The notes beneath the pieces are model-generated. The model made no database searches, was not told where the DNA came from, and saw nothing but the letters and a program-made list of their open reading frames with translations. Shown here in pieces: positions 20,282 to 27,123 of a stretch of 49,428 nucleotides of DNA. Location: positions 1 to 49,428 of the forward strand of contig VFJK01000054.1 in NCBI GenBank assembly GCA_009886125.1, written 5' to 3'. Positions within the stretch are counted from its first letter, which is position 1. Each line of letters starts with the position of its first letter. The position numbers were made by a program, and so were the translations under genes. Source of the DNA: Geobacter sp. (lineage in GTDB: Bacteria; Desulfobacterota; Desulfuromonadia; Geobacterales; DSM-12255).

Positions 20282-20794
20282 TTAATGATAGCCTTCGTGG
20301 ACCACAAGACTTTTCCTGACATATTCAACCCTATGCCTACCCAGATAACAGTGCATATATAACTTTACACCGGGTCGTTCCTGAATAAATTGACGGACCC
20401 TGTCTGCTGTCACCCTGTTCGCAGCACTTTCAACCGGGAGATAGCTTAATGGAAAACTTACCAGTTCCATTCCCAGCGAACTGGCCATGCGCTGCTCAAG
20501 ACGTAGCAAGGCTTTTTCCTGAGGCAGCCGAGTATCGAGCAGACTGATCAGACCGGTATAACCATCTTTTTTGAGTTGCCTTAGTTCCTGCTCATGTGGA
20601 TAGGGACCAATTGTCAATAGCGGCATAATGTTACGCTGCTTCATCCTTGTCGCATGAAGCGGTTTAAGGTACGGTTCGAACATATCGAAAGAACCGAGTA
20701 TGACAATACCTGTGCTTGAAAGCAGGAGTAGAACCAAGAGTAATCTTGGGAGCAGAAATACTATTTTTTTAAATCGTTCTTTTGGTTGTTTCAT
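20282..20794 (-). CDS. Membrane-anchored cysteine-based protein phosphatase (PTP/DSP fold)
   Basis: The 170-aa protein has a basic N-terminus, one membrane helix (residues 11-34) and a small domain containing the phosphatase P-loop HCYLGRHR (Cys149, Arg155; the C-x5-R motif) and a possible general-acid region near SLLDTRLPQE. By the positive-inside rule the catalytic domain is outside the cytoplasm. It is the last gene of the exopolysaccharide-like operon and overlaps the GT2 gene by 26 bases, with its own AGGA ribosome site. A periplasmic dual-specificity-type phosphatase in such an operon could act on a phosphorylated glycan or lipid carrier rather than a protein. That is inference. Confidence 0.7.
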   Translation of the reverse strand: MKQPKERFKKIVFLLPRLLLVLLLLSSTGIVILGSFDMFEPYLKPLHATRMKQRNIMPLLTIGPYPHEQELRQLKKDGYTGLISLLDTRLPQEKALLRLEQRMASSLGMELVSFPLSYLPVESAANRVTADRVRQFIQERPGVKLYMHCYLGRHRVEYVRKSLVVHEGYH

Positions 20795-22187
20795 TACGTA
20801 GTTCCTGGCGTAAAGGCTTGCCCCAGCCGTGTCGCCAACAGGTCAAAGTGGCAAAAAGACGCTCTACAACCATCAACTGGCGGTACCCGGCAAATTCGAT
20901 TAAACCGAAAAAACTGAGCTTAAGCAGATCGCCAATCGACTTATACCGCCGGAAAATAAGATTATCGAGGGTGATTGCACCGATATTGAGCCATATCCCC
21001 CAGATTATTGCCAAAAGCAAAAATAAAAGCGCAAAATCATAATCAATTAGATCAAACCATAAAAACAGAATGAACCCCAGATAACCCAAAAATTCAATCA
21101 GCGGTCCAAGCGCCTCAAAAACAAGAAAGTAGGGGAAAACCACCAGACCGATACTTCCATAGCGCGGGTTTAGAAACATACCCCGGTTGTGCCAAAGACT
21201 GTCAATCAGTCCTCTTTGCCAACGATTGCGCTGTTTCAGAAGAGACAGGTAGTCTTCAGGAACCTGTGTCCAGCAGACCGGATCTGGCACAAACTGAATC
21301 TTATAGGGTATCTTTTCTTTACGGCAGTGGCGATGCAGTCTCACCACAAGATCCATATCCTCTCCTACCGAATTACGGTAACCACCCACCGCCTGCACCA
21401 TGTCTTTGCGAAATATTCCAAAAGCTCCTGAGATTATCAACAGACCATTAAAGAAATTCCAGGAGGTCCGCCCAGTAAGAAATCCGCGGATATATTCCAG
21501 TGCCTGAAAACATTCAATCCAGCGACGGGGAGCTCGAACCTCAGCCACACGGCCGTTACGGATCTGGCAACCGTTCAGGACCCTGACAATACCTCCGGTG
21601 GCAATAACCTGCCGATCCTCTACAAACAGTTTGGCCGCACGCATTAAGGCATCAGAATCAAGAATAGAGTCTGCATCTACCGAACAGAATAACGGGTATT
21701 TCGAGATATTTATCCCTGCATTCAGAGCATCCGACTTTCCTCCGTTTTCCTTGTCGATTACGGTGAGATTATTATGGCTCAGGGAAATATATTCACCGCG
21801 AATTGGTTGATGCGGGAGCAGGGTCGCAACCGGCTGGTGAATCTGAACAAGGCGAAACGCATCGTAAAGTCGAGCCATGGTTGCATCGTCTGAACCGTCA
21901 TTGACAACGATAACTTCAAATTCCGGATAGCGGAGATTCAAAAGCAGCGTCACCGTAGTAATAATGGTTAATTCTTCATTGTAGGCAGGGACAATAATTG
22001 TTATCGGCCGGTAAAAACTGCCTGTCACGAGATTCTGGATATGCTGCCTGGTAGCGATCGCCAATTGTCCGCGGATATCAAAGAGCGAGACTAACGTAGC
22101 CAGTGTATAGCTGCTGTTTATGAAAACAAAATACACAAGAATTATAAGCTGCCAGGCTAACAGGAGATACACAAGATAATCTGCCAT
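20769..22187 (-). CDS. Family 2 processive glycosyltransferase, PgaC/synthase-like
   Basis: The 472-aa protein has an N-terminal membrane helix, a GT2 catalytic domain and C-terminal membrane helices (about residues 345-425). The catalytic motifs of synthase-type enzymes are complete: VPAYNEE with VVNDGSDD, SVDADS (DxD), GEDMDL (catalytic Asp) and QRNRWQRG (Q-x-x-R-W). These features are those of chitin/hyaluronan/PgaC-type synthases that polymerise a sugar and thread it through the membrane. It lacks a PilZ or MshEN domain. Its start overlaps the HEAT-protein stop by one base (TGATG). The sugar is not predictable from the sequence. Confidence 0.88.
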   Translation of the reverse strand: MADYLVYLLLAWQLIILVYFVFINSSYTLATLVSLFDIRGQLAIATRQHIQNLVTGSFYRPITIIVPAYNEELTIITTVTLLLNLRYPEFEVIVVNDGSDDATMARLYDAFRLVQIHQPVATLLPHQPIRGEYISLSHNNLTVIDKENGGKSDALNAGINISKYPLFCSVDADSILDSDALMRAAKLFVEDRQVIATGGIVRVLNGCQIRNGRVAEVRAPRRWIECFQALEYIRGFLTGRTSWNFFNGLLIISGAFGIFRKDMVQAVGGYRNSVGEDMDLVVRLHRHCRKEKIPYKIQFVPDPVCWTQVPEDYLSLLKQRNRWQRGLIDSLWHNRGMFLNPRYGSIGLVVFPYFLVFEALGPLIEFLGYLGFILFLWFDLIDYDFALLFLLLAIIWGIWLNIGAITLDNLIFRRYKSIGDLLKLSFFGLIEFAGYRQLMVVERLFATLTCWRHGWGKPLRQELRNETTKRTI

Positions 22188-23290
22188 CAGACACCTTCCA
22201 GTATATACGCGCAGACATCCCTGACAAAGCGGTCACTGCTGTTTAACTGCTGGTAAAGAATATCCCTGCCCTCCTCACTGATCGCCCCAAGTGAACGTGC
22301 GGCGTTAATGCGTACATGGTAGTTGCTGTCTCCGAGCAAGGCCGTCAGTGAGGGGAGGATGCCTTCGCCGTCTAGTACAGAATAGCGGGCAGCAACAGCC
22401 CTTACACGCCAGTCAGGATCATTCAGCGCAGGCAGGGTCAGTTCCCCCTTGCTGTCACCGTCCATGACTCCCATAGCTCGAAGACAGGCAATCTTCATGG
22501 TTACTTCGCTACTGAACTGTTCATAAGAATTCCGGAGTAATGGCAGCGAATGCTTGAACTGTGAGACACCGCACGCCTCAACGAGATCCCGCTTTATTTG
22601 CAGGGGCAATTGCTGATCGGACAGCATTTCTTCAATCAGCGCCAAAACTTCAGCATCCTCATTTCTGCCGATAAAGCTGCTGATAATACTGCAGTAGATC
22701 ATTTCATTGAACTTTCCTGAAATAACCTGATGGGAAAGCAGCACTCTATTTATGATCGCAACATCAGAAGTCGTCGCAATCTGGCTTAGGGCCCAGAGCA
22801 GTTTGGCAATAACATGAGATTCTCGCTCGCGCTCAAGAAGTTCCCGGTAAATCGGCGCTGTTGCCGGCAGCTTCAGAAACCCCAGTTTTTCGACAGCAAG
22901 CAACCTTGATACCCATGAACCTCGGACTGTGAACTGCCTGCAGAGCTTTTCGGGCAATTGCAGCTTTGCAGCAAGGTTTTGGAGATGGGTAGATTTCTCC
23001 TTATCTGTTTCAGCCAGCAGATAAATAACAACATCTGCGAAAGCCATGATTTCGAGCCGAGAAATAGGTGCCCTGACCGGGGATGAATTATCCTGAAGAA
23101 AACGGTAACAGGCTGAAAGATAGTAATGCTTGGCGTCTGCAATCCGACGTTCCTCCCTTTCAGTAATCAATTTCTGGAAAATCATAACCAAGAAAAGTAG
23201 CATCGTAGCGATCAGCAGAATCAGTATCGCTTCCTTCAGGAACCCTTTGAACTGAAACAGCGTATAGAGCTGATAGATGTAATCAAGCAT
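22187..23290 (-). CDS. Membrane-anchored HEAT-repeat protein
   Basis: The 367-aa protein has one membrane helix (about residues 20-41), then alpha-helical repeats; the clearest are at the C-terminus (PALNDPDWRVRAVAARYSVLDG, LTALLGDSNYHVRINAARSLGAI). These are HEAT/PBS-lyase-type repeats, a protein-binding scaffold. The loop after the helix is basic (RKL..EREERR-like), placing the repeats in the cytoplasm next to the GT2 catalytic domain. It sits between the TPR-barrel gene and the GT2 gene, with 3 bases to the former. A scaffold or regulator of the synthase is the simplest inference. HEAT proteins are not part of the standard Pga, Bcs or Alg sets. Confidence 0.75.
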   Translation of the reverse strand: MLDYIYQLYTLFQFKGFLKEAILILLIATMLLFLVMIFQKLITEREERRIADAKHYYLSACYRFLQDNSSPVRAPISRLEIMAFADVVIYLLAETDKEKSTHLQNLAAKLQLPEKLCRQFTVRGSWVSRLLAVEKLGFLKLPATAPIYRELLERERESHVIAKLLWALSQIATTSDVAIINRVLLSHQVISGKFNEMIYCSIISSFIGRNEDAEVLALIEEMLSDQQLPLQIKRDLVEACGVSQFKHSLPLLRNSYEQFSSEVTMKIACLRAMGVMDGDSKGELTLPALNDPDWRVRAVAARYSVLDGEGILPSLTALLGDSNYHVRINAARSLGAISEEGRDILYQQLNSSDRFVRDVCAYILEGV

Positions 23291-23293
23291 AGC

Positions 23294-25510
23294 TCACCAC
23301 CAGTAACGGGCAAACAGTGTTGCCCCGCTGCGGGAATACAGTCCCTGCCTGTATTCGTAGCCCAGCTCACTGCCGATACTTATTGCAGGACTAAGCCGGT
23401 ATTCTCCGGAAAGTCGGCTCGTAAAGGTAAAGTATCTCGAAGTATCCTGACTACTTGACAGACGCTCTGCAGCATTACCGACACCGATACTGAAAGAAGA
23501 CCGGAACCGATGGTCCGGTTCCCACCCCAGTGTCGTGAGTGAAGTGATCGCTCCGGTGTCGATTACAAAATAAATGCGTTCGTTGAGCGACAATGTTTCC
23601 GCAGGGTAGATGGTTACACCGGGAATCAGGATATGCGCGTCACTATTACGGAAGCTCAGCCTGAAGAGGCCGATGGAACCTTCAATGCCTTTTACAGGCT
23701 GAGAATATTCACCGCCGATACTGTATCTCGATGAAAAAGACGGGTCCGGGCTGAAGGTTGCCGCCAGATAACCGGATCGGCCGTTCTGTTTACCGAGACC
23801 AGAGTGCAATTCAAGACCGACCTGAGTATCGGTAAGTCCAAAGCGGGTTATCCTGTTGGCGGACAAAACTCCGGTGATCTGCTCGATTTTTTGCGTCAGG
23901 GTGACTCCGATATTCTGCTCGGTCGGCAGTCCTCGTGAGTACTGATAGGCGCCACCATACAACCTGAAATTGTTACGACGAACTCGGTACAGAAGATCGG
24001 GGCGATCATCTGCAAGCTTGATACGTTCAACCTCAGACATGGACTCTATTAACAGTTTAGCCGCAGCTTCTTCTTTATTGAGAATCAGGCTTTCAATGTA
24101 GAGATAACGAAAATCTTTGTCCTCTGGATAACGCCTGGTCAAACCAGCAAAAATACGGCACGCATCAGGATAATCACGCCGGCTTATTGCCGCCATCCCC
24201 AAGCGGTAGCCGGCAGTGTAGGTATCACGAGCGGATTTTTCCAGATCCAGCCATATATCGATAGCTCCGGCCTTATCTCCGTTCTTGGCGAGCGTATCAG
24301 CATAGGAAAGAAGAAATGCTGTCTCTGCTTTATTCAGCTCGTTACGAACGTCAAGCGACTCCTGAGCTGCAAGCGAAGCCCTGAAGGACTGGAGTGCCTC
24401 TGCAAGATTGCCCTGCCGATAAAGCAATCGACCTCGAAGTGCTTCCGTTTCCGCACTAGATGGCAATGTCCGAAGAAGCTCTAATGCCTGATCCGTGTCG
24501 CCTTTTGCAGCAAGAACGTCTATTGTAAGGCGCTTGAAGTCGGCCTCTTGCGGGTATTCGGCAGAAAGGATTCTGTAGAACACGTACGCATTTTCGTAAT
24601 CAGCTAAAGCAAAATAGACTCGGCCCAACCTAGTGCCGGTTTCGTAGCGTGCTGAACTTTCAAGCCATAAAGACTTAAGAAGCTTTTCAGCGTCTCCATG
24701 CTTTCCTGCAGCTGTCAGAGCGTCTGCCTCCTGCAGCTTGACCAGATTTGTCAGTCTTGATCTTGCTATGGTTAAATCTGGCGTAGAGGGCGTCTTCGGT
24801 GAAGCTTCAATCAGGATTGCTGCATCGTTTATGCGTCCGGCGGCAGTTAGAAGTCGCACTTTGAGCAGGATGACATCATTGCGCTCCTGCCATGCTTTCG
24901 GCATGGCAGTTAACTCTTTCAGAGCAAGGGCAGTTCCACCGGAGTCTGCTGCAGCCTTAGCCGCAAGGACAGCAAAATCCGCTTCAGACGGATATGCTCC
25001 TGATAAATTCAGATAAACATCCCGGGCTTTCTCAGGCTGAACTGTTCGCAAATAGAGTTGGCCAAGACGGGATCCGCTTTCATATGCAAGCCGATTATGA
25101 CGAAAGAGTTTTTCAAGAATGTTTATTGCGGAAGCAGTATCACCAAGAGAAGAGAGCCGATCAGCTTCGGAAATCAACTGCAATGCTTCCACTTTAACAA
25201 GAAGGTCACGGACAGAAGAATTTGCTTTGCGCGACAGGGACTTACGCAGAAACCGAGCAGATTCCTTGTAATCACGCTGCCAAAACCTGACACGACCGAT
25301 AGCCGCTTCAATTTCCGGGTTAGCGGGATAGCGCTTTGCAAGTTTCTTCAAAGTCAGTTCTGCAGCAGTGTATTCTCCTGCCTCGGCCTGTTGACGAGCT
25401 TTATTCAGCCCCTCGTTGTAGCTGGAAAGTGCATTTGAATCTTCGGGGTAAATGAAAAAGAGCAACAACAGAATCATGAGTTTGCTGATCATTGTTCCGG
25501 ATTTACTCAT
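23294..25510 (-). CDS. TPR protein with C-terminal outer-membrane barrel (YaiO/PgaA/NfrA-like architecture)
   Basis: The 738-aa protein has a signal peptide (hydrophobic segment to about residue 28), many TPR-like repeats (about 30-500; for example AELTLKKLAKRYPANPEIEAAIGRV) and a C-terminal region of about 230 residues of alternating strands ending FARYWW. The end resembles the YaiO-type outer-membrane barrel. Periplasmic TPRs plus a barrel is the layout of exopolysaccharide exporters such as PgaA, AlgK/E and BcsC. The gene overlaps the upstream TIM-barrel gene by 4 bases and would export the polymer made by the GT2 protein. The barrel is smaller than the 16-strand PgaA pore, so a PgaA orthologue is unlikely. 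Confidence 0.75.
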   Translation of the reverse strand: MSKSGTMISKLMILLLLFFIYPEDSNALSSYNEGLNKARQQAEAGEYTAAELTLKKLAKRYPANPEIEAAIGRVRFWQRDYKESARFLRKSLSRKANSSVRDLLVKVEALQLISEADRLSSLGDTASAINILEKLFRHNRLAYESGSRLGQLYLRTVQPEKARDVYLNLSGAYPSEADFAVLAAKAAADSGGTALALKELTAMPKAWQERNDVILLKVRLLTAAGRINDAAILIEASPKTPSTPDLTIARSRLTNLVKLQEADALTAAGKHGDAEKLLKSLWLESSARYETGTRLGRVYFALADYENAYVFYRILSAEYPQEADFKRLTIDVLAAKGDTDQALELLRTLPSSAETEALRGRLLYRQGNLAEALQSFRASLAAQESLDVRNELNKAETAFLLSYADTLAKNGDKAGAIDIWLDLEKSARDTYTAGYRLGMAAISRRDYPDACRIFAGLTRRYPEDKDFRYLYIESLILNKEEAAAKLLIESMSEVERIKLADDRPDLLYRVRRNNFRLYGGAYQYSRGLPTEQNIGVTLTQKIEQITGVLSANRITRFGLTDTQVGLELHSGLGKQNGRSGYLAATFSPDPSFSSRYSIGGEYSQPVKGIEGSIGLFRLSFRNSDAHILIPGVTIYPAETLSLNERIYFVIDTGAITSLTTLGWEPDHRFRSSFSIGVGNAAERLSSSQDTSRYFTFTSRLSGEYRLSPAISIGSELGYEYRQGLYSRSGATLFARYWW

Positions 25511-27018
25511 GGAAGTTGCTCCAATCCTTCGACACTATGTAGAACCCACCCCTTGAAAGAGCTGAAGGGCGGTATTTTCTTGAGCAAAATAGGTAATTCC
25601 TTACGAAGCAAGGCGAATGAAAGACGTGAACCAGGAACGTTATAACTGCGAATTTTTTTCCAGTATACTCCGCCAAGTAATAGTGCCCCTGGAGAATTTG
25701 CAGGAACCATGGTTAAAACGTCATGATGCTCATCTGGAACAGGCATCAACTCGACCCCTAGCATAACGGGCTTGCCAAGCTTTTCGCCTGCTGCCAGCAG
25801 TGTACGGGTAATTTCCAGTAGTTCAGAATAATCAGTCCGATACCCCATAACCACAACTTCATCAAGCCGACGGACAGTCTCCCAGGAAAGATCCCTGCCA
25901 TTGACCGGTAGCTGATTGAACCAGAAAGGCACTGCCGCAGAAAGCAAAAACTTACCGCTCCGGCAATGTAAATTTGCTGCATTCAGCATTTCAAGGTACT
26001 TTTTAGAGTACTCCTCTCTTTTCAGGGAAAAGTCCTTGAGCAGATACGGCTCGACATCAAGCTGAAAACCCGAGAATTTAGATGAAGGATGATTTCTGTT
26101 GAAGGCAGCAACGGCTTCAATCCGCCGTAAAAGTGGAGAAATGTCATTAACGCTATCCGGTGAACCATCAAGAGCCCAGATGGCGATTCCTTCTCTTGCT
26201 GCCTCTTTAATGAAAGGGGCAAATTGCTCAAGGTCATCGTTGATCTGCATGTAAAGCTTGCTGATTTGATGCCGCTTCAAGCGTTCAAGGAGCTTCAAAG
26301 GGCTGTTCGCTGGCATCTTGCTATCCCACAGCCAAGCAGAAAGTGGCTGTGTCGTATTTTCAGCCTCAATCCGACTGAAAACCGCCCTTTTCAACCCAAA
26401 CGTACCGGATACGCCATCCAATCGGAAAACAAGGTATCGACAACGGCTCAGATTTATAGCGGCAACAATGGGTGCAAGCGAAAAAATACCTGAAGGGGAA
26501 CTGCTGAGAGCTCCGAGCAAAATATTATCATCCAGTTTTGCCAAGTTTTCGTCAGCCAGAGCAACTGACCACCCCCCATTGAAGCTTCCTTCGAGAAGTA
26601 GTGACTGGTAGGCAAGCAAATCACGCACTTTTCCAGGACTTGCCAGATCAAAAATCAGACCTCCTGGGCCTGCTCCGTCACGGCGAAAATGGTTAACAGC
26701 AATTTCTTTTAGAGAGCCGTATGTCTTTAGCTCAGGTTCAATGAACGCGAGACTCGGTAACGGCGAAGGAAGAGCCTCCAGCCTGACATCAGGTTGCGTA
26801 TACTCAATATGTGACAATTTACCTGCAACAGTTACAACCTCCATAAAAGAGGATTTTTGTGCCATTTTCACATCAACAAGTGCGGCAACAGCCTGCTCAT
26901 CAAAGGCGAAAGCAGGACATCCGGAAAGAATAATCACAATCAGTGTAAGCAGCAGTAACATATCAACTTTCTTAGAAGCTTGTATCAGTAAGTTCATAGT
27001 TGGATTCATTGCCATCAT
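25507..27018 (-). CDS. Exported TIM-barrel protein, glycoside-hydrolase-like
   Basis: The start is uncertain; ATG codons at 27018, 27009 and 26997 all lead into a hydrophobic signal (VDMLLLLTLIVIILSGC). The signal may be cut by signal peptidase I near AFA-FDE or used as a lipobox (LSGC). The N-terminal half resembles a beta-sandwich. The C-terminal half (about residue 250 on) looks like a TIM barrel with FQLDVEPYL at a strand end, VVMGYR and MLGVELMP, the pattern of glycosidase-like barrels with acidic residues at strand ends. No specific family was recognised. As first gene of the operon it probably trims or modifies the polymer in the periplasm, like PgaB or PelA, but this is inferred. Confidence 0.65.
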   Translation of the reverse strand: MMAMNPTMNLLIQASKKVDMLLLLTLIVIILSGCPAFAFDEQAVAALVDVKMAQKSSFMEVVTVAGKLSHIEYTQPDVRLEALPSPLPSLAFIEPELKTYGSLKEIAVNHFRRDGAGPGGLIFDLASPGKVRDLLAYQSLLLEGSFNGGWSVALADENLAKLDDNILLGALSSSPSGIFSLAPIVAAINLSRCRYLVFRLDGVSGTFGLKRAVFSRIEAENTTQPLSAWLWDSKMPANSPLKLLERLKRHQISKLYMQINDDLEQFAPFIKEAAREGIAIWALDGSPDSVNDISPLLRRIEAVAAFNRNHPSSKFSGFQLDVEPYLLKDFSLKREEYSKKYLEMLNAANLHCRSGKFLLSAAVPFWFNQLPVNGRDLSWETVRRLDEVVVMGYRTDYSELLEITRTLLAAGEKLGKPVMLGVELMPVPDEHHDVLTMVPANSPGALLLGGVYWKKIRSYNVPGSRLSFALLRKELPILLKKIPPFSSFKGWVLHSVEGLEQLP

Positions 27019-27055
27019 AGAGTAGTAATTGACCTCTTCATGCTCATGACGAGTA

Positions 27056-27083
27056 ATTGTATCAAAAGTTGAACTTGTTACAA
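27056..27083 (-). promoter_or_regulatory. Candidate promoter and operator of the exopolysaccharide operon
   Basis: On the minus strand TTGTAA (27083-27078), 16 bases, then TACAAT (27061-27056). The -35 box lies inside the palindrome CTTGT-t-ACAAG (27074-27084), a plausible repressor site. The divergent gene at 27124 starts 40 bases away. Confidence 0.45.
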
Positions 27084-27123
27084 GCTTCACGACTTTATGA
27101 CTAATAGATGATAAAATATCAAC

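Follow-up and report, generated by a model that had tools for sequence, protein, structure and literature searches.

The window analysed here, the whole 49,428-nucleotide stretch of VFJK01000054.1, is contig 79 of a 3.57-Mb Geobacter sp. draft genome (GCA_009886125.1) and carries on its minus strand five joined open reading frames (ORFs), among which a family 2 glycosyltransferase (GT2) synthase stands next to a HEAT-repeat protein. In order, they encode an exported TIM-barrel protein (TIM; 25507..27018) with a signal sequence, a lipobox-like LSGC, a beta-rich N-terminal domain and a GH18-like barrel; a protein with a signal peptide, TPR repeats and a C-terminal YaiO-type outer-membrane barrel, likely the exporter (TPR-barrel; 23294..25510); the HEAT protein, with one N-terminal transmembrane helix and a solenoid predicted to be cytoplasmic (22187..23290); the GT2 of 472 amino acids (aa) (20769..22187); and a membrane-anchored PTP-fold protein (PTP; 20282..20794) with the loop HCYLGRHR and a domain predicted to be extracytoplasmic. 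The TIM and TPR-barrel genes overlap by 4 bases, TPR-barrel and HEAT are separated by 3, HEAT and GT2 overlap by 1, and GT2 and PTP by 26. The GC content is 47.6% in the operon and 53.7% in the remaining window. The original prediction for this DNA had described the same joined genes in the same order, which the ORFs, junctions and domains confirm. Its exported TIM barrel, periplasmic TPR plus outer-membrane barrel, membrane-anchored HEAT protein and complete processive-type GT2 are all borne out below, and its C-x5-R phosphatase only in part. It had extended the set to 27084, where there is no start codon; the TIM start is uncertain, the likely ATGs being at 27018, 27009 or 26997.

The GT2 reaches 86.7 bits with PF13641 (cut-off 27), and its Pfam matches are of glycosyltransferase type only. 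It has the processive-type motifs DxD (D171-A-D173), GED (G-E276-D277) and QxxRW (Q319-R-x-R-W323), and an alignment of 19 rows that takes in the window shows no variation at D171, D173, E276, D277, Q319, R320, R322 and W323. Between NDGS and DxD, some 25 residues (~109-133) are present in 19/19 rows and missing from Escherichia coli PgaC and YaiP. The distance from NDGS to DxD is 47-52 residues in the control loci (8 measurable of 9) vs 71 in L170 and L171 (L numbers denote loci, G numbers genomes). This stretch could have been a docking mark for HEAT, a reading weakened because L172 bears a similar one and has no HEAT.

The HEAT protein is well above the HEAT_2 cut-off in Pfam (59.2 vs 27.7 bits; PF13646/PF02985). 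A HEAT gene adjoins or is fused to the close GT2 (or to the neighbour of the GT2) in 82 of 83 judged loci from five phyla (named after record titles), namely that of the window, Pseudomonadota, Bacillota (monoderm), Campylobacterota and Aquificota, and HEAT is thus not lost beside the GT2 in relatives. The 82 loci are all 7 window-type loci of the window's order, 2 from Campylobacterota, 2 of the L025 type, 2 from Aquificota, 18 from one Bacillota order, 19 others of the window's phylum, 12 from Pseudomonadota and 20 other Bacillota. In control GT2 loci of the window's order (L173-L181; GT2 E 1.3e-16 to 5.1e-22), HEAT was found in 0/9. A partner was accepted when it matched the HEAT profile at E <=1e-3 on the same strand, within 1800 bases of the GT2 or overlapping it; the weakest match is that of L225 (E 6e-6), and in L144 one ORF lies between HEAT and GT2. 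Two Bacillota loci (L239 and L244) have a single ORF in which HEAT (profile E 2e-28 and 1e-14) is followed by GT2 (E ~1e-175), both parts being recognised by Pfam. In L232, HEAT is fused to GHa, a family presented below, and in L150 (L150:9446-12952) the HEAT protein adjoining the GT2 is enlarged to 1168 aa with many HEAT stretches.

The 83 loci were picked by similarity to the GT2 of the window or of L028, or by TIM matches, so that 82/83 holds for this family and not for GT2s at large. Close GT2s were found in 20 of 395 genomes of the window's phylum (E <=1e-80; 19 new loci taken), in 13 of 339 genomes of the phylum of L025 (E <=1e-60; 12 new loci) and, with the L028 GT2 as query, in 26 of 329 Bacillota genomes (20 new loci). 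Left out before the count were L020, L021 and L023 (same contigs as L016, L018 and L017), L098 and L100 (contigs that stop upstream of the GT2), L019 (no GT2), the TIM-only loci, and the Bacillota GT2 hits G1682, G1672, G1646 and G1666. Since the HEAT profile had been built up iteratively from its own hits, Pfam served as a check on 17 partner proteins, of which 14 reached the HEAT_2 cut-off. Flanks of the first transmembrane helix are more positive on the C-terminal than on the N-terminal side in 46 of 48 HEAT proteins, with 2 ties. By the positive-inside rule, this bias places the solenoid in the cytoplasm, and the fusions agree.

The near-constant adjacency and the two natural fusions support the association of HEAT with GT2. 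We consider it likely that the window operon belongs to a HEAT-GT2 subclass of synthase-dependent exopolysaccharide machines, with HEAT as the cytoplasmic partner of the synthase. The system is real and conserved, and its stable unit is HEAT plus GT2, the remaining genes being exchangeable modules. The five genes were dropped as the system itself since loci of GHa type and of receiver type share the same HEAT-GT2 core. Of the five-gene unit originally proposed, HEAT beside GT2 is therefore conserved and reaches wider than stated, but the five genes are not a defining set, as the modules come and go; the claim of a phosphatase needs care.

Those modules are TIM, PTP, TPR-barrel, GHa, deacetylase, UDP-sugar dehydrogenase and receiver proteins. 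The 19 loci of the window's phylum outside its order have GHa in 10, a deacetylase in 9 (3 of them confirmed by Pfam), PTP in 3 and TIM in none. L170, with a window-type GT2 (64% identity), contains HEAT, GT2, GHa, deacetylase and TPR-barrel, the GHa set replacing TIM and PTP, and in L017 and L018 GHa and TIM are found together. One Bacillota order has GHa, HEAT, GT2, receiver, UDP-sugar dehydrogenase and TIM in L028 and in 17 of 20 fetched loci, the remaining three (TIM identity 35-38%) having TIM alone; the TIM family matches 144 of 246 genomes of that order, and the fetched loci are mostly the best-scoring of these. The nucleotide-sugar dehydrogenase of this branch (TIGR03026, 427.4 vs 189.8 bits) suggests uronic acid in its polymer, and branches of the HEAT-GT2 family may make different polymers.

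The glycosidase-like GHa proteins (L028:2688-4949 and relatives) recur beside HEAT-GT2, with about 710-830 aa and invariant E225 and E375; no catalytic Pfam family was found above cut-off and no PDB profile match. The L134 copy of GHa begins with TPRs. A 1107-aa chain in L180 (L180:1321-4644) joins GH18, polysaccharide deacetylase and GT2 and is touched by the TIM profile, and ORFs of similar size are present in L173 and L177.

Receiver genes are frequent neighbours of the core. In 11 of 12 Pseudomonadota loci such a gene immediately precedes (TPR-)HEAT-GT2, and in 17 of 20 other Bacillota loci it immediately precedes HEAT-GT2. In the Bacillota order it comes right behind the GT2 in 18/18 loci, among them L079, and it adjoins the operon in 2/2 Aquificota and 2/19 same-phylum loci (L133 and L136). 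L015 and L016 have a receiver within 6 kb of the GT2, not adjacent. None was found within that distance in the window, L017, L018, L170, Campylobacterota, L025 and L110, nor in ten loci without HEAT. Pfam confirmed Response_reg in 29/29 proteins given (those of L028, L133, L027, L099, L136, L215, L228, L233 and L242, ten from Bacillota and ten from Pseudomonadota, with the kinase upstream in L216 excluded). Some receivers have another residue in place of the phospho-acceptor Asp, such as Glu in L028 and L088. All 11 Pseudomonadota receiver proteins checked have the receiver domain only, and a GGDEF domain is added in 5 of 13 checked from Bacillota outside the order mentioned (L226, L233, L235, L239 and L244). 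The L244 protein also has a beta-lactamase-fold domain, and those of L239 and L241 a DivIVA-like stretch. In Aquificota, the gene after TIM encodes a small HATPase protein in L027 (L027:10720-11298) and is an ORF of about 190 aa in L096-L100 and L102; receiver and HATPase bracket the operon and look like a two-component pair.

This recurrence allows a different reading, in which a widespread synthase class is wired to a phosphorelay, a receiver (REC) protein switching the GT2 on and off through the membrane-tethered cytoplasmic HEAT. Diderms and monoderms would then have the REC-HEAT-GT2 core in common and exchange the exporters and glycosidases that surround it, and the window would have kept HEAT-GT2 with no receiver gene adjoining. 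Control by the lone receivers of Pseudomonadota may need no cyclic di-GMP (c-di-GMP), which in some Bacillota (receiver plus GGDEF) may be an older or added layer. We hold this as a tentative possibility, the less probable because of the GGDEF domains in Bacillota receiver proteins, which point to a c-di-GMP link there and argue against a phosphorelay as the sole control; the idea of a control free of c-di-GMP is likewise weakened for this phylum. For HEAT as the partner of the synthase, a place instead of the usual synthase regulator is plausible in view of the cytoplasmic charge bias, the two fusions and the frequent receiver neighbour, and, given the same GGDEF domains, a c-di-GMP link may exist.

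The PTP protein reaches no curated Pfam or NCBIfam cut-off. Its AlphaFold model (mean pLDDT 89.4) has as nearest solved fold the DUF442 phosphatase of Shewanella putrefaciens (3gxg/3gxh; Z 14.5, root-mean-square deviation (rmsd) 2.7, 121 aligned), to which the sequence profile is related weakly (E 0.0059). Its loop contains C149-x5-R155, and C-x5-R is kept in 14 of 21 aligned proteins; the catalytic Cys is lost in the other 7, six second copies from Aquificota and L105. The Asp of PVDWQN in the DUF442 protein, however, aligns with Ser117 of the window, and at this place of the expected general acid, set by the 3gxg alignment, Asp is found in 1/21 rows. The charge bias indicates an outside domain in 17 of 25 proteins, with 7 ties and 1 opposite, and the window protein is anchored at its N-terminus, where the N-flank is positive. 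The phosphatase of the original prediction therefore keeps its fold, its intact loop and its anchor, but misses the general-acid Asp, and we regard it as a predicted PTP-fold protein of doubtful activity. Of the 12 diderm loci with TIM, 10 have PTP, the exceptions being L214 and L224, and so does L110, where the TIM of the same genome is on another contig; PTP is present in 3 of the 19 other same-phylum loci and in 0/18 loci of the Bacillota order. In 2 of 20 other Bacillota loci, near HEAT-GT2, it appears as a multi-repeat membrane protein (L233:5770-7473 and L245:10740-12449), in which the first PTP-like repeat has HCYLG(R/K)HR and the later ones do not.

It has also to be considered whether PTP is a signalling protein phosphatase similar to TpbA, which is periplasmic, controlling the synthase from the periplasm rather than being a polymer-processing part. 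There is a precedent in the tyrosine phosphatase TpbA of Pseudomonas aeruginosa, linked to Pel and biofilm formation in the available text of its description (PMC2691606), and the anchor and positive N-flank of the window protein would suit this role. Nevertheless, with the general-acid Asp in one row of 21, the catalytic Cys lost in 7 and no kinase within the five-gene set of the window, we find it unlikely.

For the TPR-barrel protein, the YaiO barrel is above both curated cut-offs (PF19413, 29.8 vs 23.9 bits; TIGR04390, 54 vs 32), accompanied by the TPRs. Of the 44 diderm loci, 42 have this gene near the GT2, contig ends truncating the other two (L138 and L171), and of the 38 Bacillota loci none has it, which fits a role in outer-membrane export.

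No curated Pfam or NCBIfam cut-off is reached by the TIM protein, whose assignment as a TIM barrel comes from its AlphaFold model (mean pLDDT 90.6) and structure searches. Foldseek ranks mostly GH18 chitinases and SleL first (E 1e-8 to 1e-7), along with a GH31. In VIA, the best row is the Clostridioides difficile wall protein Cwp19 (Z 20.5, rmsd 3.3, 238 aligned), followed by many TIM barrels with Z 16-19, GH18 enzymes included, over about residues 221-504; the C-domain of PgaB has Z 17.0 (rmsd 3.6, 230 aligned). The secondary-structure string and the alignment predict a fold with an acid just after strand 4, as in GH18. Among 25 rows, W, G, D-x-E-P, P-x-W, D, M-x-Y, E and G are invariant, with D343-x-E345 and M413-x-Y415 in the window (525-aa numbering), positions that we take to recall the D-x-E and M-x-Y-D of GH18. 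The GH18 motif is DxxDxDxE, and TIM retains the final D-x-E only, as G-F-Q-x-D-x-E, the earlier Asp residues being replaced. The family profile also finds a sequence relative in Cellulomonas fimi (PDB 10yv_A, E 1.2e-21), labelled 'putative GH97' by its depositors. No relative was found in viral contigs with TIM as query. In two Aquificota proteins (L103:9830-11974 and L104:8198-10627), encoded close to a GT2 of 441-442 aa, a TIM-like domain is joined to a TolC-type outer-membrane efflux protein, which is another combination of glycosidase and exporter.

The nearest described system is Pga (E. coli pgaABCD), which shares the GT2, the TPR plus outer-membrane barrel and a periplasmic TIM-barrel glycosidase. 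The operon might thus be a divergent poly-N-acetylglucosamine locus with TPR-barrel as PgaA, TIM as the hydrolase half of PgaB, GT2 as PgaC and HEAT replacing PgaD, a division of labour with which the PgaB C-domain among the structural neighbours of TIM and the 28% identity between PgaC and the window GT2 (E 6e-23) agree. PgaC_IcaA is the best NCBIfam model for this GT2, but with 129.5 bits against an equivalog cut-off of 422.3, and the PgaA-type porin model TIGR03939 gives the TPR-barrel 32.3 bits against a cut-off of 366.65. Moreover, no PgaD was found by profile, the family hidden Markov models of HEAT, TIM, PTP and TPR-barrel match none of PgaABCD, the GT2 has its extra 25 residues, and HEAT and PTP are additional. 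A deacetylase domain was found neither in the five window proteins (Pfam, NCBIfam) nor in L015-L018 (deacetylase profile). We consider this explanation quite unlikely.

A lipid- or wall-directed glycosylation, in which the GT2 modifies a lipid or wall polymer, TIM acts on peptidoglycan and PTP dephosphorylates a polyprenyl or other lipid phosphate, is very improbable given the processive-type GT2 motifs, the TPR-barrel gene in nearly all diderm loci, and the deacetylases and large glycosidase-like proteins of sister loci, even with Cwp19 as best VIA neighbour, SleL among the structural rows, a membrane-anchored PTP with its domain predicted outside, and a TIM-PTP pair apart from the GT2 in L026 and L096.

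Other described loci are more distant. For cellulose (Bcs), the window GT2 has 38.7 bits against the CelA cut-off of 699.1. Nfr (NfrA/NfrB/YbcH) of E. coli shares a GT2 with DxD, ED and QxxRW and a TPR plus outer-membrane protein, and NfrB carries a C-terminal c-di-GMP-binding MshEN domain, according to the available parts of its description (PMC8669469). The 472-aa GT2 of the window is without this part, and NfrB is related to it with E 0.15 by BLAST and 1e-6 by the family profile. The yaiO-yaiX-yaiP-yaiS locus of E. coli shares the YaiO-type barrel and a GT2 (28% identity with YaiP, E 6e-11), but no HEAT, TIM or PTP is annotated there. No Alg family is among the NCBIfam matches listed, no direct comparison with Alg8, Alg44 or AlgK parts having been made. 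The claim of a distinct polymer export system therefore stands against Pga, cellulose and Nfr, as far as tested, and fails where it made the five genes the defining set; no close match to a described polysaccharide locus was found in the searches made.

In the open-access literature (titles and abstract starts, among the matches listed, with subscription journals mostly outside), no HEAT-GT2 or receiver-HEAT-GT2 polysaccharide locus was recognised. The word 'heat' is absent from the main text, as available, of a systematic operon study of synthase-dependent systems (PMC7112194). Two candidates were discarded: the EmbRS locus, whose genes in the accessible text are wza/wzx/wzy and kps (PMC3684757), and a lipocone paper that, in the portion at hand, names a HEAT repeat once, for beta-catenin (PMC12419801). 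As far as the literature could be searched, the HEAT-GT2 variant of synthase-dependent exopolysaccharide machines is newly recognised.

The complete five-gene set is kept in the same order in four other genomes of the window's order, with identities from 31 to 71% by BLAST (GT2 61-71%, HEAT 32-40%, TPR-barrel 31-39%, TIM 38-40%, PTP 41-46%), and a linkage by chance is hence less probable. A sixth TIM genome of the same family (G012, L019) retains TIM, TPR-barrel and HEAT only as fragments, lacks a GT2 match at 1e-15, and is a decaying copy. Scanning a genome collection with the TIM alignment, we found 14 loci, carried by Geobacter argillaceus, metagenome-assembled genomes (MAGs) of Geobacteraceae, Desulfuromonadales and Campylobacteraceae, two Proteobacteria MAGs, two Aquificaceae MAGs and Neobacillus mesonae MER 107 (record title), among others. 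L025 (Proteobacteria) has TIM, TPR-barrel, HEAT, GT2 and PTP in the order of the window. Aquificota L027 and L099 have receiver, TPR-barrel, HEAT, GT2, a Cys-less PTP copy, PTP and TIM, and the two Campylobacterota loci TPR-barrel, HEAT, GT2 and PTP with TIM and a deacetylase-like gene facing the opposite way. In five more distant TIM loci (L029-L033), no other gene of the set was found.

In a GT2 tree of 52 rows, the window's order (5), Aquificota (3), Campylobacterota (2) and L025/L110 (2) form one group of 12 (support 100/99), separate from other rows of the window's own phylum. L170, L171 and L214-L245 were left out, the TIM-bearing L214 and L224 included, and three outgroup rows are very long and were flagged by the program. 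This grouping, the lower GC of the operon and the patchy occurrence detailed below suggest horizontal spread.

Within the proposed HEAT-GT2 machine, the GT2, by its motifs and PgaC-like architecture, would polymerise a nucleotide sugar in the cytoplasm and push the chain through the inner membrane. HEAT, held by its single N-terminal helix on the cytoplasmic face, would be a partner specific to the GT2, most likely scaffolding its assembly or activating it, in place of the PgaD, PilZ or MshEN parts used elsewhere. In the periplasm, the GH18-like TIM may bind and probably trim the chain, which the TPR/YaiO-barrel protein would carry over the outer membrane. The PTP-fold protein of the inner membrane, facing the periplasm, could be a slow phosphatase or an accessory binding phosphate or other anions. 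The polymer is probably rich in N-acetylhexosamine, as suggested by the likeness of the GT2 to PgaC and of the barrel to GH18, and by the deacetylases in sister loci.

Several observations weigh against this interpretation. L172 has a close GT2 (E 6.6e-86) and is the sole one of the 83 loci without HEAT. The search profiles were iterated on their own hits, and three of the partners run through Pfam fall short, L225 (20.3 bits) and L105 (22.2) being under the HEAT_2 cut-off and L022 having no HEAT match; the Campylobacterota partners are HEAT-like by our own profile, place and membrane anchor only. Occurrence is patchy: of the 141 genomes of the order, 6 carry TIM (the window's own among them) and 7 a GT2 at E 2e-183 or better, and three genomes of the same genus have no match (completeness 81, 95 and 78%). 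In Aquificota L026 and L096, PTP and TIM are separate from a GT2, and the L026 genome has no GT2 match at 1e-40. The window locus is without a deacetylase. Window TIM has no match to PF00704 at E 0.1, and non-GH18 barrels (GH164, GH5, beta-galactosidase) are within 1 Z of most GH18 rows in VIA, so that the GH18 likeness is taken from the fold together with the D-x-E and M-x-Y positions.

If the HEAT-GT2 reading is true, it adds a further regulatory architecture for synthase-dependent polysaccharide systems, across five phyla. The fusions and the recurrent receiver gene provide a testable route to control of the synthase, by the receiver alone or with c-di-GMP. The locus maps also offer two glycosidase-like families, TIM and the putative GHa, tied to polymers, and the PTP-fold family without the usual general acid may have a new membrane role.

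PADLOC gave no match for the TIM, HEAT, GT2 and PTP proteins, the TPR-barrel having been left out of this search, and a role in anti-phage defence was discarded from these four. Scans for promoters and terminators gave 11 and 13 sites vs shuffle means of 8.8 and 8.3, and were not used. Next to the operon in the window are a 201-aa plus-strand ORF and rubrerythrin-, SDR-, lipocalin- and UvsE-like ORFs; with these five as queries against L015-L019, the sole match was a rubrerythrin-like ORF in L015 with 28% identity. The GT2 of L028 nests among the Bacillota order that has L028-type loci, which we suspect to be Paenibacillales, and the record name Neobacillus mesonae may not fit this genome.

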